In this document: piece by piece, positions 1,219 to 58,347 of the stretch | How positions within the stretch are numbered: position 1 is the first letter of the stretch | Layout of the letters: each line of letters opens with the position of its first letter | Source of the DNA: Salinisphaera sp. | GTDB taxonomy: Bacteria > Pseudomonadota > Gammaproteobacteria > Nevskiales > Salinisphaeraceae | NCBI GenBank assembly: GCA_027858915.1 | Contig: JAQIBT010000012.1 | Coordinates: 1-64,000 of the forward strand | DNA length: 64,000 nucleotides | Reading direction: 5' to 3' | Notes under the pieces: generated by a model | What the model was told of the DNA's origin: nothing | Databases searched by the model: none | The model's input: the letters and a program-made list of their open reading frames with translations, nothing else | Translations under genes and position numbers: made by a program

Positions 1219-2459
1219 CGCCTGCAGACCGGCCCATGCGACGTATCGCGTTCTATCTGCCTGCGCTCGCGGCGGGGGGCATGGAGCGCGTCACGCTCGT
1301 GCTGGCCGAGGCGCTCGCAGCCCGTGGGTATGCCGTGGATATCGTGCTTGAGTACGGCACCGGCGGCTATCTCGATCGTGTGCCGCCGACCGTGGGCCGG
1401 GTGGTTCTGAGCCGGGGGCCGAAATGGCCGTCTTATCTTGCCCTGATCAGGGCCTGGCCGCGGGAGGGTCTGGCGCAGCTTGGGCGGATGGTCTGGGCCG
1501 GCGACAACTACGTGCCGCTGCGGCGGCTGGCGGCCTTGGTCGACTACATGGAGAACACGCGTCCGGCGGTAATTTTTGCCGCGCACGGGCGTATTCCGCA
1601 TCTGGCGCTCTGGGCACGCCGGCTTGCCCGTGTTTCGCCGCGCGTGGCCATCATCGAACACAGCACCTATTCGCCGTGGCTGGACACGTTCACACACGAT
1701 CGGCGTACCGACGCGTTGCTGCACTACCTGCTGTCGTTGATGCGACGGCTGTATCCCACGGCAGACGCGATTGTCGGCGTTTCGGACGGCGTCTCGGATG
1801 ATCTGGCAGCGGTGGCGGACATCCCTCGCAGCCGCATCACCACCATCTACAACCCTGTGGTGACGCCAGATATCGAACATCTTGCCGCCCAGCCGGTCGA
1901 TCATCCCTGGTTTGCAGCCGGCCAGCCGCCGGTCGTGCTGGCCGTGGGAAGACTGGTCGAGGAAAAGGATTTCAAGACGCTTGTCGAGGCGTTTGCGCGA
2001 ATGCGTGGCAAGGGGGTATTGGCACGCCTCGTCCTGCTGGGTGACGGCGAGGAAAGAGCACGATTGCTAGAGCGAGCGCAGGAACTGGGCATCGCAGAAG
2101 ATCTCGACATGCCTGGCTGGGTGGACAATCCGTATGCCTATATGGCGCGCGCAGGCGTCTTTGTGCTCTCCTCGCTATTCGAGGGGTTGCCGGTGGCGTT
2201 GATCGAAGCGCTGGCTTGCGGCTGTCCAGTCGCTGCGACCGATTGCCCGAGTGGCCCACGTGAGATTCTCGACCATGGCGCATACGGTCCGTTGGCGCCG
2301 GTTGGCGATGCCGGCGCGCTGGGAAAGGCCATGGAACAGGTGCTGACGTCGCCGTTGCCGCGCGCGCAATTGACGGCGCGCGGCGCGTATTTCAGCGTCG
2401 ATCGGGCTGCCGATTCCTATCAGGCGCTGATCGACCGGCTTATTGGCAACGATAGCTGA
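1215..2459 (+). CDS. GT4-family glycosyltransferase
   Basis: AAGGMERVTLVLAEAL, VGRLVEEKDF, SSLFEGLPVALIEALACGCPVAATDCPSGPREIL. Confidence 0.9.
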   Translation: MTPADRPMRRIAFYLPALAAGGMERVTLVLAEALAARGYAVDIVLEYGTGGYLDRVPPTVGRVVLSRGPKWPSYLALIRAWPREGLAQLGRMVWAGDNYVPLRRLAALVDYMENTRPAVIFAAHGRIPHLALWARRLARVSPRVAIIEHSTYSPWLDTFTHDRRTDALLHYLLSLMRRLYPTADAIVGVSDGVSDDLAAVADIPRSRITTIYNPVVTPDIEHLAAQPVDHPWFAAGQPPVVLAVGRLVEEKDFKTLVEAFARMRGKGVLARLVLLGDGEERARLLERAQELGIAEDLDMPGWVDNPYAYMARAGVFVLSSLFEGLPVALIEALACGCPVAATDCPSGPREILDHGAYGPLAPVGDAGALGKAMEQVLTSPLPRAQLTARGAYFSVDRAADSYQALIDRLIGNDS

Positions 2460-44122: not shown

Positions 44123-44180
44123 ACGGCAACCGCTCCCGGCTAGAAACCTCAATTAAGGATCTCCTCAGCACCAGGCAATA

Positions 44181-44204
44181 AAAAGACCGCCTCAGCGGTC
44201 TTTT
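44181..44204. terminator. Bidirectional intrinsic terminator (mpl on + strand; candidate sRNA on - strand)
   Basis: AAAAGACCGC-CTCA-GCGGTCTTTT, perfect stem with T-tracts both ways. Confidence 0.9.
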
Positions 44205-44260
44205 GTATTCGATCTAATGACTTTCCCATCGTCCGAAGGGAAAGGCACATAATCGCTGTC

Positions 44261-44334
44261 GAATCCGCCGAGCCGAATCGGACAACGCCGAGGCACGAGG
44301 GGGAACCGGGGAGGACCGATCCGGCCGGCGAAAC
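44261..44334 (-). repeat. Structured module 1 (3' copy) of the candidate sRNA
   Basis: GUUUCGCCGGCCGGAUCGG–core–CCGAUUCGGCUCGGCGGAUUC. Confidence 0.75.
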
Positions 44335-44367
44335 AGGTAGGCACATTACGTCAGTCACCCGTATGAA

Positions 44368-44444
44368 GATTCGCTCTGATCGGGCCGGCAACGCCGAGGC
44401 ACGAGGGGGGGGACCGGGAGAGACCGGGCCCGATCAGGCGAAAC
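44368..44444 (-). repeat. Structured module 2 (5' copy) of the candidate sRNA
   Basis: GUUUCGCCUGAUCGGGCC–core–GGCCCGAUCAGAGCGAAUC. Confidence 0.75.
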
Positions 44445-44638
44445 TGGGGACCGCGCAAGCGCGGTGAACATACTCCTTGTGCTAATTGCGTCTAACGTGG
44501 CCCAAGCGGCAGGCACATGGGCATCAGTTTGCTTGTACTACCGTAGTCTCCAGCGTCGCACCCAAGACTAGGGTTGTTACGAGTAACAGCTTGAACAACA
44601 AAAGTTGGCACTCGATTACTTGAACTTACCTTTGTCCA

Positions 44639-44655
44639 AGCAATCGCCGTGCCAA
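44639..44655 (-). promoter_or_regulatory. Sigma-54 promoter, perfect consensus
   Basis: Minus strand T-TGGCACGGCGATTGC-T matches TGGCACGRNNNTTGCW at every specified position; predicted +1 near 44628. Confidence 0.88.
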
Positions 44656-44748
44656 TTAAAATAAAAACAATAAAAACAATTAGATGCAGTGAATTTATAT
44701 AAGCACTGGCTGATTTGGTCGGCTAGTCTTGCAAATAGCCGGGTTTTC

Positions 44749-44766
44749 TGTCGTTAAAAAGCGACA
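44749..44766. promoter_or_regulatory. GlrR-type upstream activator site 1
   Basis: TGTC-GTTAAAAAGC-GACA (arms extend to TCTGTCG/CGACAGA). Confidence 0.75.
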
Positions 44767-44812
44767 GATATTGGGGGTAATCTATAAGCGTCTGTTATTG
44801 ATGCGCTAATAA

Positions 44813-44830
44813 TGTCGTCAATTTGAGACA
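44813..44830. promoter_or_regulatory. GlrR-type upstream activator site 2
   Basis: TGTC-GTCAATTTGA-GACA. Confidence 0.75.
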
Positions 44831-44856
44831 TCTTATGGGGGCCGTCACGACGCGGC

Positions 44857-44874
44857 TGTCGTTGTCAGGCAACA
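44857..44874. promoter_or_regulatory. GlrR-type upstream activator site 3 (one mismatch)
   Basis: TGTC-GTTGTCAGGC-AACA. Confidence 0.5.
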
Positions 44875-44886
44875 GACGGCGTTGGC

Positions 44887-46248
44887 TCAGAGCTTGTAAT
44901 CGGCGGGGTCGATCTGGTGCCGATTGAGCAGCTTGTAGAATTCGGTTCGGTTGCGCTGAGCCATTCGGGCGCTGCGTGATACGTTGCCTTCGGCAATTCG
45001 TAGCAACTGAATCAGATAGTCGCGAACGAAATCATCGCGTGCTTCAGCCAGCGGTTTGAGGTGGCCGCCAACATTGGGAGTATCCGAGCCCTGCCTATAG
45101 AGCGCCTTCTCGACTGCCGATACACCGATCACCTGGCCACGCGTCAGTGCGACGTTCTGTTCGACTACGTTTGACAACTGCCGGATGTTGCCGGGCCAGT
45201 GATAGGTGGCCAGACGCTCCATGGCGTCAGGCGCATAGACCTTGGCTCGCCGACCTGCGCGACGTGCAAGATGATCGAGAAAATGGCGGGCCAGCGGGGC
45301 GACGTCTTCTGCGCGTTCTGCCAGCGACGGTAGATCGAGGCTCACCACGGCCAGTCGATAGTAAAGATCCTCCCGAAACGCGTGCCCGGCAACCGAGGCG
45401 TTGAGATCGCGATGCGTGGCGGAGATCACGCGTACGTCGACCGCTATCGAGCGTGCCGATCCGACCGGTCGTACTTCGCGCTCCTGTAGTACGCGCAGTA
45501 GTTTGACCTGGAGGGCAACCGGCATATCGCCGATTTCGTCGAGAAAGATCGTGCCCCCCTCGGCGCTGCGAAACAAGCCTGGCTGGGCGTTCTTGGCATC
45601 GGTGAACGCGCCTTTTTCATGGCCGAACAGCTCAGACTCGAGTAATTGCTCTGGCATTGCGCCGCAGTTGATGGCGACGAAAGGCTGGCGCCCACGCGGA
45701 CTGGCTTCGTGCATGACCCGCGCCATCACTTCCTTGCCGGTACCTGATTCGCCGGTAATCAGCACGCTGGTATCGGTGTCGGCGACCAGGCGCGCATCCG
45801 CCAGGCGTGCGCGCATCAGCGGTGACCTCGTCACGATTCGATGGGTCCAGATTGACTCCCAGGCATCTGCCGGCAGCCCGCCTTGGGCGAGAGCCTGTTC
45901 TACCCGCGACAGCAGCGCCTCCTTGTCCACCGGCTTGGAGAGAAAGTCGAGCGCGCCGGCCTGAGTGGCAGCTACCGCTTCAGGGATTGTGCCATGAGCC
46001 GTGATCAGGATCACCGGTAGCGTGGGATGAGCCTGGGACAGTCGTTCCAGCAGGCCCAGCCCGTCCATTCCGTCCATTCGCAGATCGGTGATGACGCATT
46101 CGGCTGGATGTTGCTCAAGCAGTGACAACGCTCGGGCGCCACTTTCGGCGGTGGTCACGATGTGTCCAGCGCCTTCCAGACGCAGCGTCAGCAACCGGCG
46201 CAGGCTGGGATCGTCGTCAACCAGCAGGATATGACCGCGACGCTTCAT
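44887..46248 (-). CDS. glrR: Sigma-54-dependent response regulator, GlrR/QseF-like
   Basis: Receiver domain, GESGTGKEVMARVMHEASPR, GAFTDAKNAQPGLF, C-terminal HTH; operon order glrK-qseG-glrR. Confidence 0.92.
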   Translation of the reverse strand: MKRRGHILLVDDDPSLRRLLTLRLEGAGHIVTTAESGARALSLLEQHPAECVITDLRMDGMDGLGLLERLSQAHPTLPVILITAHGTIPEAVAATQAGALDFLSKPVDKEALLSRVEQALAQGGLPADAWESIWTHRIVTRSPLMRARLADARLVADTDTSVLITGESGTGKEVMARVMHEASPRGRQPFVAINCGAMPEQLLESELFGHEKGAFTDAKNAQPGLFRSAEGGTIFLDEIGDMPVALQVKLLRVLQEREVRPVGSARSIAVDVRVISATHRDLNASVAGHAFREDLYYRLAVVSLDLPSLAERAEDVAPLARHFLDHLARRAGRRAKVYAPDAMERLATYHWPGNIRQLSNVVEQNVALTRGQVIGVSAVEKALYRQGSDTPNVGGHLKPLAEARDDFVRDYLIQLLRIAEGNVSRSARMAQRNRTEFYKLLNRHQIDPADYKL

Positions 46249-46250
46249 GC

Positions 46251-46886
46251 TCAGGTGCCGCTGTCTGCTGAATCGAGCCGCTCTTCGATATGCGCGAGAG
46301 CGCGTAGTTTGCGATGGGCGTCGTCTAGTTCCGAGCGCAGCTGATCGATTTCTGCCTTGTCGTTAGCCGCGCCATCCCCGTTGTCTGGAGAAGAGCCTGC
46401 AGCGGTGGAAGCTTTGGTCTGGTTGTTCGTGAGTTGGGTGTACAGCCGCGCATAGTCGGTCAGGTACTGGCGGGCAGCCGGGGTCCAGGGTGACGGTTGG
46501 GCATCCAGTGCCAACTGCGCGTAGCGCGCTGCTTCATCCGGCGTATACAGTCGTTGGCCGGGCGTTCCCAGCGCGATCGCCAGGCGCGCATACTCGGTAG
46601 CGTTGGGTATTTTGCGGATATCGTCGCGTGCAGTATTAACCGCAGCCTCGCGTCCATCGGGCGTGATCGCAGCCAGATGATGAGCGTAGTCGAGCAGGGC
46701 TACCGCGGGATCACGCACAGGATGCGTCCTGCAAGAGGTTGCCGTCGCCTGCGCGGGGGCGCGGTCAATAGTCGTGCAGCCGGTCGCCGCCAGCACGGCA
46801 AAGACCACCGTCCCACAGCAGAGCACGCGCGCCCGCTGAAACGCAGCGATGCCCAGACCATCGCGGCCGGACCCGTTAAAGCGCAT
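46251..46886 (-). CDS. QseG-like lipoprotein
   Basis: Lipobox-like LAATGC; C-terminal coiled coil EIDQLRSELDDAHRKLRALAHIEERL; lies between glrK and glrR. Confidence 0.75.
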   Translation of the reverse strand: MRFNGSGRDGLGIAAFQRARVLCCGTVVFAVLAATGCTTIDRAPAQATATSCRTHPVRDPAVALLDYAHHLAAITPDGREAAVNTARDDIRKIPNATEYARLAIALGTPGQRLYTPDEAARYAQLALDAQPSPWTPAARQYLTDYARLYTQLTNNQTKASTAAGSSPDNGDGAANDKAEIDQLRSELDDAHRKLRALAHIEERLDSADSGT

Positions 46887-48411
46887 GAGGAGAGGGAATA
46901 TGGACTTTGAACACGGCGCCGCCCTCGGCCCCGGATTCGACTCGAATATGACCGCTGTGCGCCTGGACACATTCGCGTACCACGGATAGCCCGATACCGC
47001 TGCCCTTGACGCCGATAGCGTCAACGGCGCGGCGGCTGCCCCTGAAGAAGACATCGAAAATAGCATCCCTCTCATCGGCGGCAACGCCGGGGCCCTGGTC
47101 AGCCACGCTCAAGTCGACGCCGTCGTGCCGGCTCGTGACGGTAATCCTCACGCGCGAGGACGTGGGTGCGAATTTCACCGCATTGGCAAGCAAATTGTCG
47201 ACGATCAGATGCATTCGGTCTCGGTCCGCTGTCACTGCAAGTATCAATCCGGGTCGTTCGACTCGAAGATTCTTCCCCTCGATCGTGAGTTTCTGACGAG
47301 CCACGATCGCCTCGATGAGCGCGCTAATATCAAAGCGTTTGTACTCCAGTTTACCGCGCCGTTGCTGCCAGGCGGAAAAATCCAGCAGGCTTTCAATCAA
47401 GCCTGCGAGCTCTAGGCTGTTGCGCTGGAGTATGTCGGCGACTTCTGCCTGAGCCGGGTCGAGTTGGCCTACGGTTCCGTCGCGCAGCAATTCAGCGCCT
47501 TCGCGGATGCTGGCCAGAGGCGTTTTCAACTCGTGCGACATGTCCCGGATAAATTGCTGTTTCTCTTTATCCAGCGTGGCGAGGCGGCGTCGCATCCAGT
47601 CCAGGCGCGCGCCTAAGCGATCGAGTTCGGCTGCCGGTGCGACGATTCTGATCTGCTGCGAGAAATCCGCATCGCCCAGCCGGGTGACCGCTTGCAGAAT
47701 CTGGCGCAGCGGCCGACCGATAACCCAGGACAGGAAAACGCCAAGAATCAACACAGCCGGCACCAGCGCGAACAGGCTCAACAAAACGAAAATACGCGCG
47801 CTGGCGGCTGTGCCCTGCAGGTGGCCGAGTTCCTTGTCGACGAAGCGGCTGCCCTGAGCGGCGATCCGATCGGTCTGCTTACCGACCGTGCCCAGCGCCG
47901 CAATCACTTTATCAGTAGCCTGTTTGTCTTCGCCGAGTTGTCGCGATAAGCCCGTAACCTGGCGTGACAGACGATTGAGATTCCAGTCGGGAACGGTATC
48001 CAGCTTCAGCATGGCCAGCGTATCGAGTTCGTCGTCGAAGGCCTTGGCCTGACTCTGGAACCGGGCCAGCAGTTCGCCTGTGCGCAGCACGCGGTACTGG
48101 CGTGCGCTGCGCTCCATGGACAGCAGCAGGCTGTTCAGGCGCTTGCTCGAACGGGTTACCTCCACGCCCTGCTTGACCAGCCGTTCGCTCTGGTTGTTAA
48201 GCGTATCCACATAGACCACGCTGGCAAGCACCGCCACGATCAACGGTGCCGCGACCAGGCCAAAGCTCACCACCAGCAGGCCGGTGATCGAGCGTGGCCG
48301 CAACCAGCGACGTGTCGCAGATGACGAGCTCGCGGGTTCGCTGTGTTCGACAACGTGTTCTGGCATGCGCGCAGCATACCGCCTCGCGCGCGCCGCAGCA
48401 TGTCGCCTCAT
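46876..48411 (-). CDS. glrK: Sensor histidine kinase, GlrK/QseE-like
   Basis: HAMP, FIRDMSHELKTPLASIREGAELL, GSGIGLSVVREC. Confidence 0.9.
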   Translation of the reverse strand: MRRHAAARARRYAARMPEHVVEHSEPASSSSATRRWLRPRSITGLLVVSFGLVAAPLIVAVLASVVYVDTLNNQSERLVKQGVEVTRSSKRLNSLLLSMERSARQYRVLRTGELLARFQSQAKAFDDELDTLAMLKLDTVPDWNLNRLSRQVTGLSRQLGEDKQATDKVIAALGTVGKQTDRIAAQGSRFVDKELGHLQGTAASARIFVLLSLFALVPAVLILGVFLSWVIGRPLRQILQAVTRLGDADFSQQIRIVAPAAELDRLGARLDWMRRRLATLDKEKQQFIRDMSHELKTPLASIREGAELLRDGTVGQLDPAQAEVADILQRNSLELAGLIESLLDFSAWQQRRGKLEYKRFDISALIEAIVARQKLTIEGKNLRVERPGLILAVTADRDRMHLIVDNLLANAVKFAPTSSRVRITVTSRHDGVDLSVADQGPGVAADERDAIFDVFFRGSRRAVDAIGVKGSGIGLSVVRECVQAHSGHIRVESGAEGGAVFKVHIPSPHAL

Positions 48412-54080: not shown

Positions 54081-54938
54081 TCAGCGCAGCTCGTTGTGGC
54101 GCACCAGGATATGGTTTTGATCGGCACGCAGCAGCGCCGCTACCTGTTCGACCAGATAGACCGAGCGATGCTTGCCGCCGGTACAGCCGATAGCGACGGT
54201 GACATAGCTGCGATCCTCGCGGGCGAAGCTGGGCAGCCAGCGCTTGAGAAATCCGTGGATATCGTCACGCATGGCGTGTGTGGCCGGCTGCGAGGCCAGG
54301 TGCTCGGCGACTTCGGCGTCGAGCCCGGTCAAAGGCCGCAGGGCAGGCACCCAGTGCGGGTTGGGCAGACAGCGCACGTCGAATACGAAGTCCACGGCCT
54401 GTGGCAGCCCGTATTTGTATCCAAAAGACTGCACCAGAATCGACAGTTCGCCGGACTGCGCGCCTTCCACCCGGTTGCGGATGATGTCGCGCAGCTGGTG
54501 GATATTGGTCCGGCTGGTATCGATGGTGATGTCGGCGCTATCGGCGATCGGCTGGGTGAGCGTTCGGTCGGCGGCGACCGCGTCAACCAGCGTGCGGCGC
54601 TCGTCGGACAGCGGATGCTTGCGCCGGGTTTCGGAGTAGCGCCGCAGGATCGTCTCTTCGCTGGCATGTAGGTAGATCACTTCGATCTGGATGCCACCGG
54701 CACGCAGTTCGGCGATCCGCTCGGCGAACCGATGAATTTCGCCCGTGCGAGCCCTGGCGTCGATGCCCACTGCGAGTCGGTCAAAATCCAGGCCTTGCTG
54801 ATGCAGTGTTTCGGCTGACACTTCGCGCAACAGCCCCAGCGGTAGATTGTCAATGCAGTAGTAGCCCAGATCCTCGAGCATGTTCAATGCCACCGACTTG
54901 CCGGCTCCGGCCAGTCCGCTGACGACGATCAGTCGCAT
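54081..54938 (-). CDS. rapZ: RNase adapter protein RapZ (YvcJ family)
   Basis: LIVVSGLAGAGKSVALNMLEDLGYYCIDNLP, FDVRCLPNPHWVPALRPLTG, AIGCTGGKHRSVYL. Confidence 0.97.
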   Translation of the reverse strand: MRLIVVSGLAGAGKSVALNMLEDLGYYCIDNLPLGLLREVSAETLHQQGLDFDRLAVGIDARARTGEIHRFAERIAELRAGGIQIEVIYLHASEETILRRYSETRRKHPLSDERRTLVDAVAADRTLTQPIADSADITIDTSRTNIHQLRDIIRNRVEGAQSGELSILVQSFGYKYGLPQAVDFVFDVRCLPNPHWVPALRPLTGLDAEVAEHLASQPATHAMRDDIHGFLKRWLPSFAREDRSYVTVAIGCTGGKHRSVYLVEQVAALLRADQNHILVRHNELR

Positions 54939-56886: not shown

Positions 56887-58347
56887 TTAGCTGGCCTGCC
56901 TCCTGCGCTCGTGCGAGGGCGGGATGGACAAGGCTTCGCGATACTTGGCCACGGTACGTCGGGCGACCTGGATACCGTTGTCCAGCAGCAGCTCTGCCAG
57001 TTTGCTGTCGGATAGCGGCTTGCCTGATGTCTCTGCGGCGACCATGCGCTTGATCATCGCCTGGATGGCGGTCGCCGATGCGCTGCCGCCGTCGGTGGTC
57101 GACACGTGGCTGGAAAAGAAATACTTGAGTTCGAATATGCCGCGCGGTGTCTGCATGTACTTGTTGGCCGTTGCCCGGGACACGGTGGATTCGTGAATTT
57201 CGAGTCGTTCGGCCACGTCGCGGAGCACCAGCGGTTTCATTGCCTCTTCACCATATTCCAGAAAAGCGCGCTGTGCTTCAACTATGCAATGAGCGACCTG
57301 CAGCAACGTATCGTTGCGGCTCTTGAGGCTGTTGAGAAAGAACCGGGCTTCCTGCAGGTGAGACTTGAGTGTGGTCTGGTCAGCCGACTTGTCCGCGCGC
57401 TTGATCAAGGCCAGATATTGGCTGTTGATGCGCAGCTTTGGCGCGATATCGGCGTTGAGCGCGACGTGCCATCCTTGTTCGCCGCGCGTCACGAACACCT
57501 CGGGTACCACATACGTCGATTCGTGATCGGTGAACGCTTCGCCCGGGCGTGGCTGCAGCGTCTGGATCAGCGCGACGGCTGCGCCGACATCGCCAGGTTC
57601 GACGCCAAGCCGGCGCGCCAGGGCATCGCGCTGGCCGCTGGCCAGGCTTTCCAGCGGCAAATTCTCGACGATAGACAGAGCAAGCTCGCGCGCCGGCACG
57701 TCGGCCGGCAGCTGGCGCAGCTGAATTCGCAGGCATTCTGCAAGATTGCGGGCCGCCACGCCCGGTGGATCAAACTGCTGGATCTGAGCCAGCACGGCTT
57801 CGATCGCGTCGCTGCCGGTGTTGAACTCGGCGTCCAGGCGTTCGCACATATCGGCCCACTCGGGCAGCAGGCCGTCGGTATCGATGCCGTCGATGATCAC
57901 GGCCGCCATGGCTCGCTGGCTGACGCTGAACGAATGCATGTCCGCCTGCCAGCTCAGATGCGCATACAGATCTGGGGTGCTCGACAGATTGGCCTGTCGG
58001 TAGTCCCAGTAGTCTTCGTCGTCGCTGGTCGGCGCGGGCGCGCTGGGCGCCGCACTGCCGGCATAGATATCGTTCCAGTCGGCGTCGACCGGCAGATTCT
58101 CGGGAATCTCGGCGACATCCTTGTCTCGGCCGCGCTCGGCGTCGGCGGTCTTGCGCTCGGTCTCGGCGTCGGGCATGTCGATCTCGCCGTGGCCGTCGTC
58201 TGCCTCGAGCATGACGTTGGAATCCAGCGCGTCCTGAATCTCCGATTTCAGATCGAGCGTGGACAGTTGCAGCATGCGGATTGCCTGCTGAAGCGCCGGG
58301 GTCATCGTCAGCGATTGACCCAGCCCAAGATGCATCGACTGTTTCAC
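56887..58347 (-). CDS. rpoN: RNA polymerase sigma-54 factor
   Basis: [32 protein letters not shown]; RpoN box [12 protein letters not shown]. Confidence 0.97.

Follow-up and report, generated by a model that had tools for sequence, protein, structure and literature searches.

Putative GlrR enhancer array and sigma-54 promoter upstream of a tandem C-rich-loop hairpin RNA in Salinisphaera

In enterobacteria, GlrKR (QseEF) is known mostly as the driver of GlmY and rpoE. The published GlrR consensus is TGTCN10GACA (PMC8745638), and E. coli glmY carries three enhancer sites (UAS) of the form TGTN12ACA, also given as the QseF/GlrR consensus, together with IHF (PMC6075780); a preliminary description of the DNA studied here had named both the consensus and the three sites, and both are found in these papers. 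GlmY in turn is a decoy for RapZ in E. coli (PMC7073468). Three further systems bear on the product of the promoter. In Rhodobacter, ccaF1-CcsR1-4 joins a small protein gene, for a DUF1127 protein, to tandem homologous RNAs under an RpoH promoter (PMC10253847). The rhizobial RNA ar14/NfeR1 has three hairpins per RNA, in which an unpaired C-rich CCUCCUCCC is ultraconserved and the stems are variable (PMC10746234). In Listeria, LhrC1-5 has several equivalent sites, which pair with G-rich stretches of mRNA close to the start codon (PMC4132741).

The DNA analysed here, called the window throughout, is a stretch of 64,000 nucleotides from Salinisphaera sp. (assembly GCA_027858915.1, contig JAQIBT010000012.1, positions 1 to 64,000). 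The preliminary description had read three palindromes beside its glrR gene as a GlrR enhancer of a sigma-54 promoter. This putative assignment is now supported by conservation, by the geometry of E. coli glmY and by the DNA-binding helix of GlrR.

The locus shares with E. coli glmY three palindromic UAS, a sigma-54 promoter, an adjacent glrK-qseG-glrR operon and a non-coding product. By our calculation, the UAS of glmY in E. coli MG1655 start 203, 170 and 107 bp before the sigma-54 element, the two proximal ones being TGTCGCTTTCTGGCGACA and TGTCTCTTTTTAGCGACA, of which TGTCTCTTTTTAGCGACA is the nearer to the promoter. Sites 2 and 3 are thus 63 bp apart at glmY and 64 bp apart here, at positions 170/107 and 176/112, whereas the distal site lies 33 bp from the next at glmY and 44 bp here. 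The two loci also differ in that the unit lies upstream of glrK in E. coli but downstream of glrR in the window, and in that the window RNA is unrelated to GlmY and GlmZ.

Like ccaF1-CcsR1-4 and the alphaproteobacterial cuckoo RNAs, the locus combines a small protein gene, tandem RNAs, an alternative-sigma-factor promoter and a Rho-independent terminator (PMC10253847), but it has sigma-54/GlrR in place of RpoH and, in place of the DUF1127 protein, an EF-hand protein that some species have lost. Like ar14/NfeR1, it has a conserved unpaired C-rich motif within varying stems (PMC10746234), but that motif is CCUCCUCCC there and CGGUCCCCCCUCGUGCC here; identity with cuckoo/ar14 RNA was rejected, as the CCUCCUCCC loop motif is absent. 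With LhrC1-5 it shares a multicopy C-rich (UCCC) RNA, predicted two-component control and a setting of envelope stress (PMC4132741), whereas the LhrC RNAs are separate sRNA genes, depend on LisR and are unrelated in sequence.

The enhancer sites and their conservation

The regulatory region and the operon comprise the following features.

44857 to 44874, minus-strand reading: UAS1 (distal), TGTTGCCTGACAACGACA, with one mismatch to TGTC-N10-GACA; starts 220 bp upstream of the promoter TGGCAC
44813 to 44830, minus-strand reading: UAS2, TGTCTCAAATTGACGACA, exact TGTC-N10-GACA; starts 176 bp upstream of the promoter
44749 to 44766, minus-strand reading: UAS3 (proximal), TGTCGCTTTTTAACGACA, exact TGTC-N10-GACA; starts 112 bp upstream of the promoter
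44674 to 44686, minus strand: position of an IHF-like site (YAANNNNTTGATW), degraded in the window to CATCTAATTGTTT by two mismatches
44639 to 44654, minus strand: predicted sigma-54 promoter TGGCACGGCGATTGCT, a -24/-12 element at enhancer distance from UAS1-3
44887 to 46248, minus strand: glrR (qseF), sigma-54-dependent response regulator; best NCBIfam match GlrR at 593.7 bits, below the equivalog cut-off of 763 bits
46251 to 47084, minus strand: qseG-like lipoprotein reading frame, named from its position and its lipobox LAATGC
46876 to 48411, minus strand: glrK (qseE) sensor kinase, with HAMP, HisKA and HATPase_c domains

The three sites lie where they had been described, and each also matches the looser published consensus TGT-N12-ACA exactly. 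The adjoining regulator shares 57.6% identity with E. coli GlrR. Both proteins have RMAxRNRTEFYKLLxRH in the helix-turn-helix, and the recognition helix is nearly unchanged.

Single motifs of this type are not enriched: the 4.33 Mb genome holds 59 exact TGTC-N10-GACA sites, compared with 53 for a backwards control. Their clustering, in contrast, is unique to this locus, where the genome scan found the only exact pair with a gap of 31-61 bp. No such exact pair occurs in the other 13 genomes of the genus, because the UAS there are partly degenerate. When the upstream region was shuffled 5000 times with its dinucleotides preserved, three sites with one mismatch or fewer never arose. Among the 14 strict sigma-54-like sites of the genome, this promoter alone is preceded by at least two UAS-type motifs within 450 bp; a second site is preceded by just one, which carries one mismatch.

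The cluster recurs at the same three positions in all 13 of the testable same-genus genomes. In these 13 loci, for which the region is complete, UAS-like palindromes lie near -221, -177 and -113 from the promoter, and the mismatches summed over the three fixed positions come to 48, whereas shuffled sequences averaged 168 and never fell below 154. The preliminary description had named a motif frequent genome-wide and not conserved at this locus as evidence against its reading; what we find is single motifs at chance level and a conserved array. The genus consensus, (T)GTCGCC-N4-GGCGAC(A), is broader than TGTC-N10-GACA. UAS2 is the best-conserved site of the genus, and its equivalent position is also occupied in L015, L021 and E. 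coli glmY; some species match poorly at the third site (three mismatches in L004 and L012, for example). In two other families, sites 2 and 3 alone are kept 3' of glrR (-183/-116 in L015, -178/-112 in L021).

The promoter core TGGC-N7-TTGC lies 199-296 bases past glrR when the 13 genus loci are taken with L015 and L021, and 233-238 bases past it in the 13 complete same-genus loci, except for 296 in L010. About 32 bp upstream of the promoter, the IHF-type YAANNNNTTGATW is exact in 5 and near-exact in 4 of the 13 genus loci. An AT-rich spacer between enhancer and promoter, which had been pointed out in the window, is also real.

Several side observations concern the surroundings. The qseG-like reading frame has no match in NCBIfam or Pfam; as annotated, it begins inside the end of glrK, and its true start is likely further in, at the lipoprotein signal (LAATGC). 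On the minus strand of the window we also find rapZ (54081-54938), which 14/14 genus genomes possess, together with a sigma-54 gene resembling rpoN (56887-58347, identified by reading its translation) and with hpf-, ptsN-, HPr- and HPr-kinase-like reading frames, all of them 8-14 kb from the GlrR promoter. The regulator, the sigma factor and RapZ are therefore neighbours.

Across the order, GlrR-type UAS pairs at about -171/-104 occur near glrKR in L086, L091, L094, L095, L099, L100, L101 and L102. The genes that they face, named from their translations, are BON, EF-hand, DUF1328-like, mannose-1-phosphate guanylyltransferase-like and UDP-sugar-dehydrogenase-like. Such recurring pairs in front of various envelope or exopolysaccharide genes offer a possible route to predicting the GlrR regulon.

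The tandem hairpin array

Downstream of the promoter, the window contains the following.

44177 to 44628, minus strand: predicted transcript of about 450 nt, deduced from promoter and terminator, its start put 12 nt past the GC of the -12 element
44487 to 44522, minus strand: remnant of an EF-hand gene (AHVPAAWATLDA), lacking an intact reading frame
44369 to 44443, minus strand: hairpin element 1, a long variable stem with a C-rich loop (covariance model R1, 69.6 bits, E 7.4e-15)
44263 to 44333, minus strand: hairpin element 2, of the same family as element 1 (covariance model R1, 65.8 bits, E 8.4e-14)
44176 to 44204, minus strand: intrinsic terminator AAAAGACCGC-TGAG-GCGGTCTTTT with a T run, between the RNA and the convergent mpl

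Hairpins of about 73 nt stand in tandem in every genome of the genus, with two copies in 7 genomes, the window included, three in 5, four in 1 and five in 1. Model R1 matches 14/14 genus genomes and one genome of a sister genus (L069), but 0/70 others in the order; in a 387-genome sample of the class, its matches fall in genus members only. The relatives are mostly draft assemblies, and that of G006 has glrR on one contig and the array on another. A terminator follows the last hairpin in 13/13 genus loci examined; that of the window was located by a repeat search and a script, having been missed by a simple promoter/terminator scan.

The loop, CGGUCCCCCCUCGUGCC, is almost invariant, and the stem sequence is variable. 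In alignment A3, which was fitted to model R1, 13 of 25 stem pairs show changes on both sides, a number reached by 0/500 shuffles in a control that ignores relatedness; pairing in this alignment is 94% and falls to 47% or less when the partners are slid. An independent plain MAFFT alignment (A1) still gives 5 pairs in which both partners have changed. On the strand read from the promoter, G.U cells outnumber A.C cells by 165 to 13, a count partly inflated by nearly fixed U.G/G.U positions but clear in direction, and the model scores 54-96 bits on this strand compared with 12.7-24.5 on the reverse. That the array is an RNA is structurally well supported. The GlrR promoter thus appears to drive a previously undescribed tandem C-rich-loop hairpin RNA, unlike E. 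coli GlmY; its transcription we infer from sequence.

The L069 hairpin occupies the same place, between mpl and qseG-glrK, although glrR is missing there. A glrR copy, 56% identical, is found on another contig of L069. A second sigma-54-like element, TGGCATAGCTCCTGC, is present in the same genome and is preceded by a UAS-like palindrome, CTGTCCCTTATTGGCAACAG; downstream of this element lies a diverged hairpin with a CCCGGCCCCCCACCG loop (about 1015-1200 and 1337-1356, minus strand, for these features).

In eight genus loci, an intact reading frame for a small secreted EF-hand protein (Pfam PF13202, PF00036) lies 3' of the promoter. The gene is missing in L003 and L012-L014, and only the fragment listed above is left in the window. 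Its distribution on the GlrR tree requires three changes, most simply three losses. In L012-L014, where UAS, promoter, hairpins and terminator are intact, no more than some 100 nt separate the promoter from the first hairpin. In L102, of another family, an EF-hand gene lies 3' of a GlrR-type promoter at 1969 on the plus strand, upstream of glrK, which suggests that this protein has long been among the outputs of GlrR.

Known RNA families and several targets were also tried. At the gathering score, no family described in Rfam 15 matches the hairpin array, and rsmX gave only a chance match, below threshold and in another part of the region. GlmY and GlmZ (RF00128 and RF00083) were each found in 0/14 genus genomes, the window included, in a search whose E. 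coli control was positive; the E. coli GlmY-RapZ-GlmZ circuit is therefore not simply copied here. A CsrA/RsmA-titrating RNA was set aside on account of the invariant loop, which has no GGA, and a dispersed repeat on account of the confinement of the hairpin copies to one locus. As a loop target, glmS was rejected, its start region having neither a conserved G-rich stretch nor conserved complementarity. Pairing of the loop with glrR, glrK or qseG, as a form of self-regulation, gave no signal above shuffles in the window, and the glrR start region has no conserved complementarity to the loop. The long loop complement, GGCACGAGGGG, occurs in the genome only opposite the hairpins themselves; a 17-mer search allowing two mismatches returned three scattered sites.

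Proposed mechanism and rival explanations

We consider it highly probable, and the best explanation of these data, that a GlrR enhancer on UAS1-3 and a sigma-54 promoter together drive a terminator-ended tandem hairpin RNA. Phosphorylated GlrR, supplied by the adjacent glrK-qseG-glrR operon, would bind UAS1-3 as an array. A bend in the DNA, due to IHF in several relatives and perhaps to an intrinsic AT tract in the window, would carry it to the sigma-54 polymerase at 44639-44654, and transcription would then head away from glrR and reach the intrinsic terminator before mpl after about 450 nt. The near-invariant C-rich loops of the covarying hairpins would be the selected product, because the EF-hand gene, which would be part of the same transcript in eight relatives, has been lost three times and the hairpins never. 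The array is likely to be a GlrR-induced regulatory RNA, and it would act in trans.

How it would do so is a more tentative matter. Taken as a single step, pairing of the loop with the G-rich ribosome-binding regions of mRNAs is the foremost candidate, though we hold it with slightly less than even confidence; it is suggested by analogy with ar14, LhrC and the ccaF1-CcsR1-4 RNAs, whose C-rich loops target ribosome-binding sites. The main alternative is that each hairpin repeats a protein-binding site, an idea that we regard as possible but doubtful; what weight remains goes to 3'-UTR or other roles. An invariant loop is no less compatible with a protein, or a conserved RNA partner, than with many mRNA targets.

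The protein alternative, in its fuller form, takes the hairpins as a titrating RNA whose repeated sites sequester an RNA-binding protein such as RapZ. The near-invariant loop and the variable copy number of 2-5 fit such a role, as do the presence of RapZ throughout the genus, with rapZ itself 10 kb away in the window, and the precedent that GlmY is itself a RapZ decoy in E. coli (PMC7073468). RapZ is so widespread, however, that its presence is weak evidence, and a loop without GGA makes no CsrA sponge; titration is an alternative of some substance that we nevertheless consider unlikely.

Less probable again, and a minor contender, is the proposal that the enhancer is real but that selection acts, or once acted, on the small secreted EF-hand protein as its output. 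The hairpins would then serve to stabilise or process the 3' untranslated part of its message, and the window unit would be a decaying leftover. Eight genus loci, and also L102, do have the gene 3' of a GlrR-type promoter. Against this, its three losses have left UAS, promoter, hairpins and terminator intact, as in L012-L014, and a 3' stabiliser has no need of a near-invariant loop.

The palindromes might also work in the DNA, as protein-binding or REP-like repeats that yield no RNA, for they lie between genes and form inverted repeats rich in GC; the excess of G.U over A.C on the promoter-read strand, the low scores of the reverse-strand model and the restriction of the copies to one locus rather than dispersal make this very improbable. 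Least credible of all is that the TGTC palindromes are chance occurrences or sites of another regulator: single motifs do occur at chance frequency genome-wide, but a three-site geometry is fixed in 13 species, glrR adjoins it and the sites match the UAS of E. coli glmY.

We return, then, to the GlrR-driven hairpin RNA. We lean modestly towards the wider proposition that in this bacterial family the GlrKR output GlmY/GlmZ has been replaced by an unrelated multi-hairpin RNA of 2-5 copies, whose loop would either target many mRNAs or titrate a dedicated protein. The array would be a new RNA that comes with an experimental entry: a regulator, a promoter and ends, all predicted, and species that already lack the EF-hand gene. 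More generally, the GlrR-sigma-54 module would have kept its architecture in a distant lineage while its target was exchanged.
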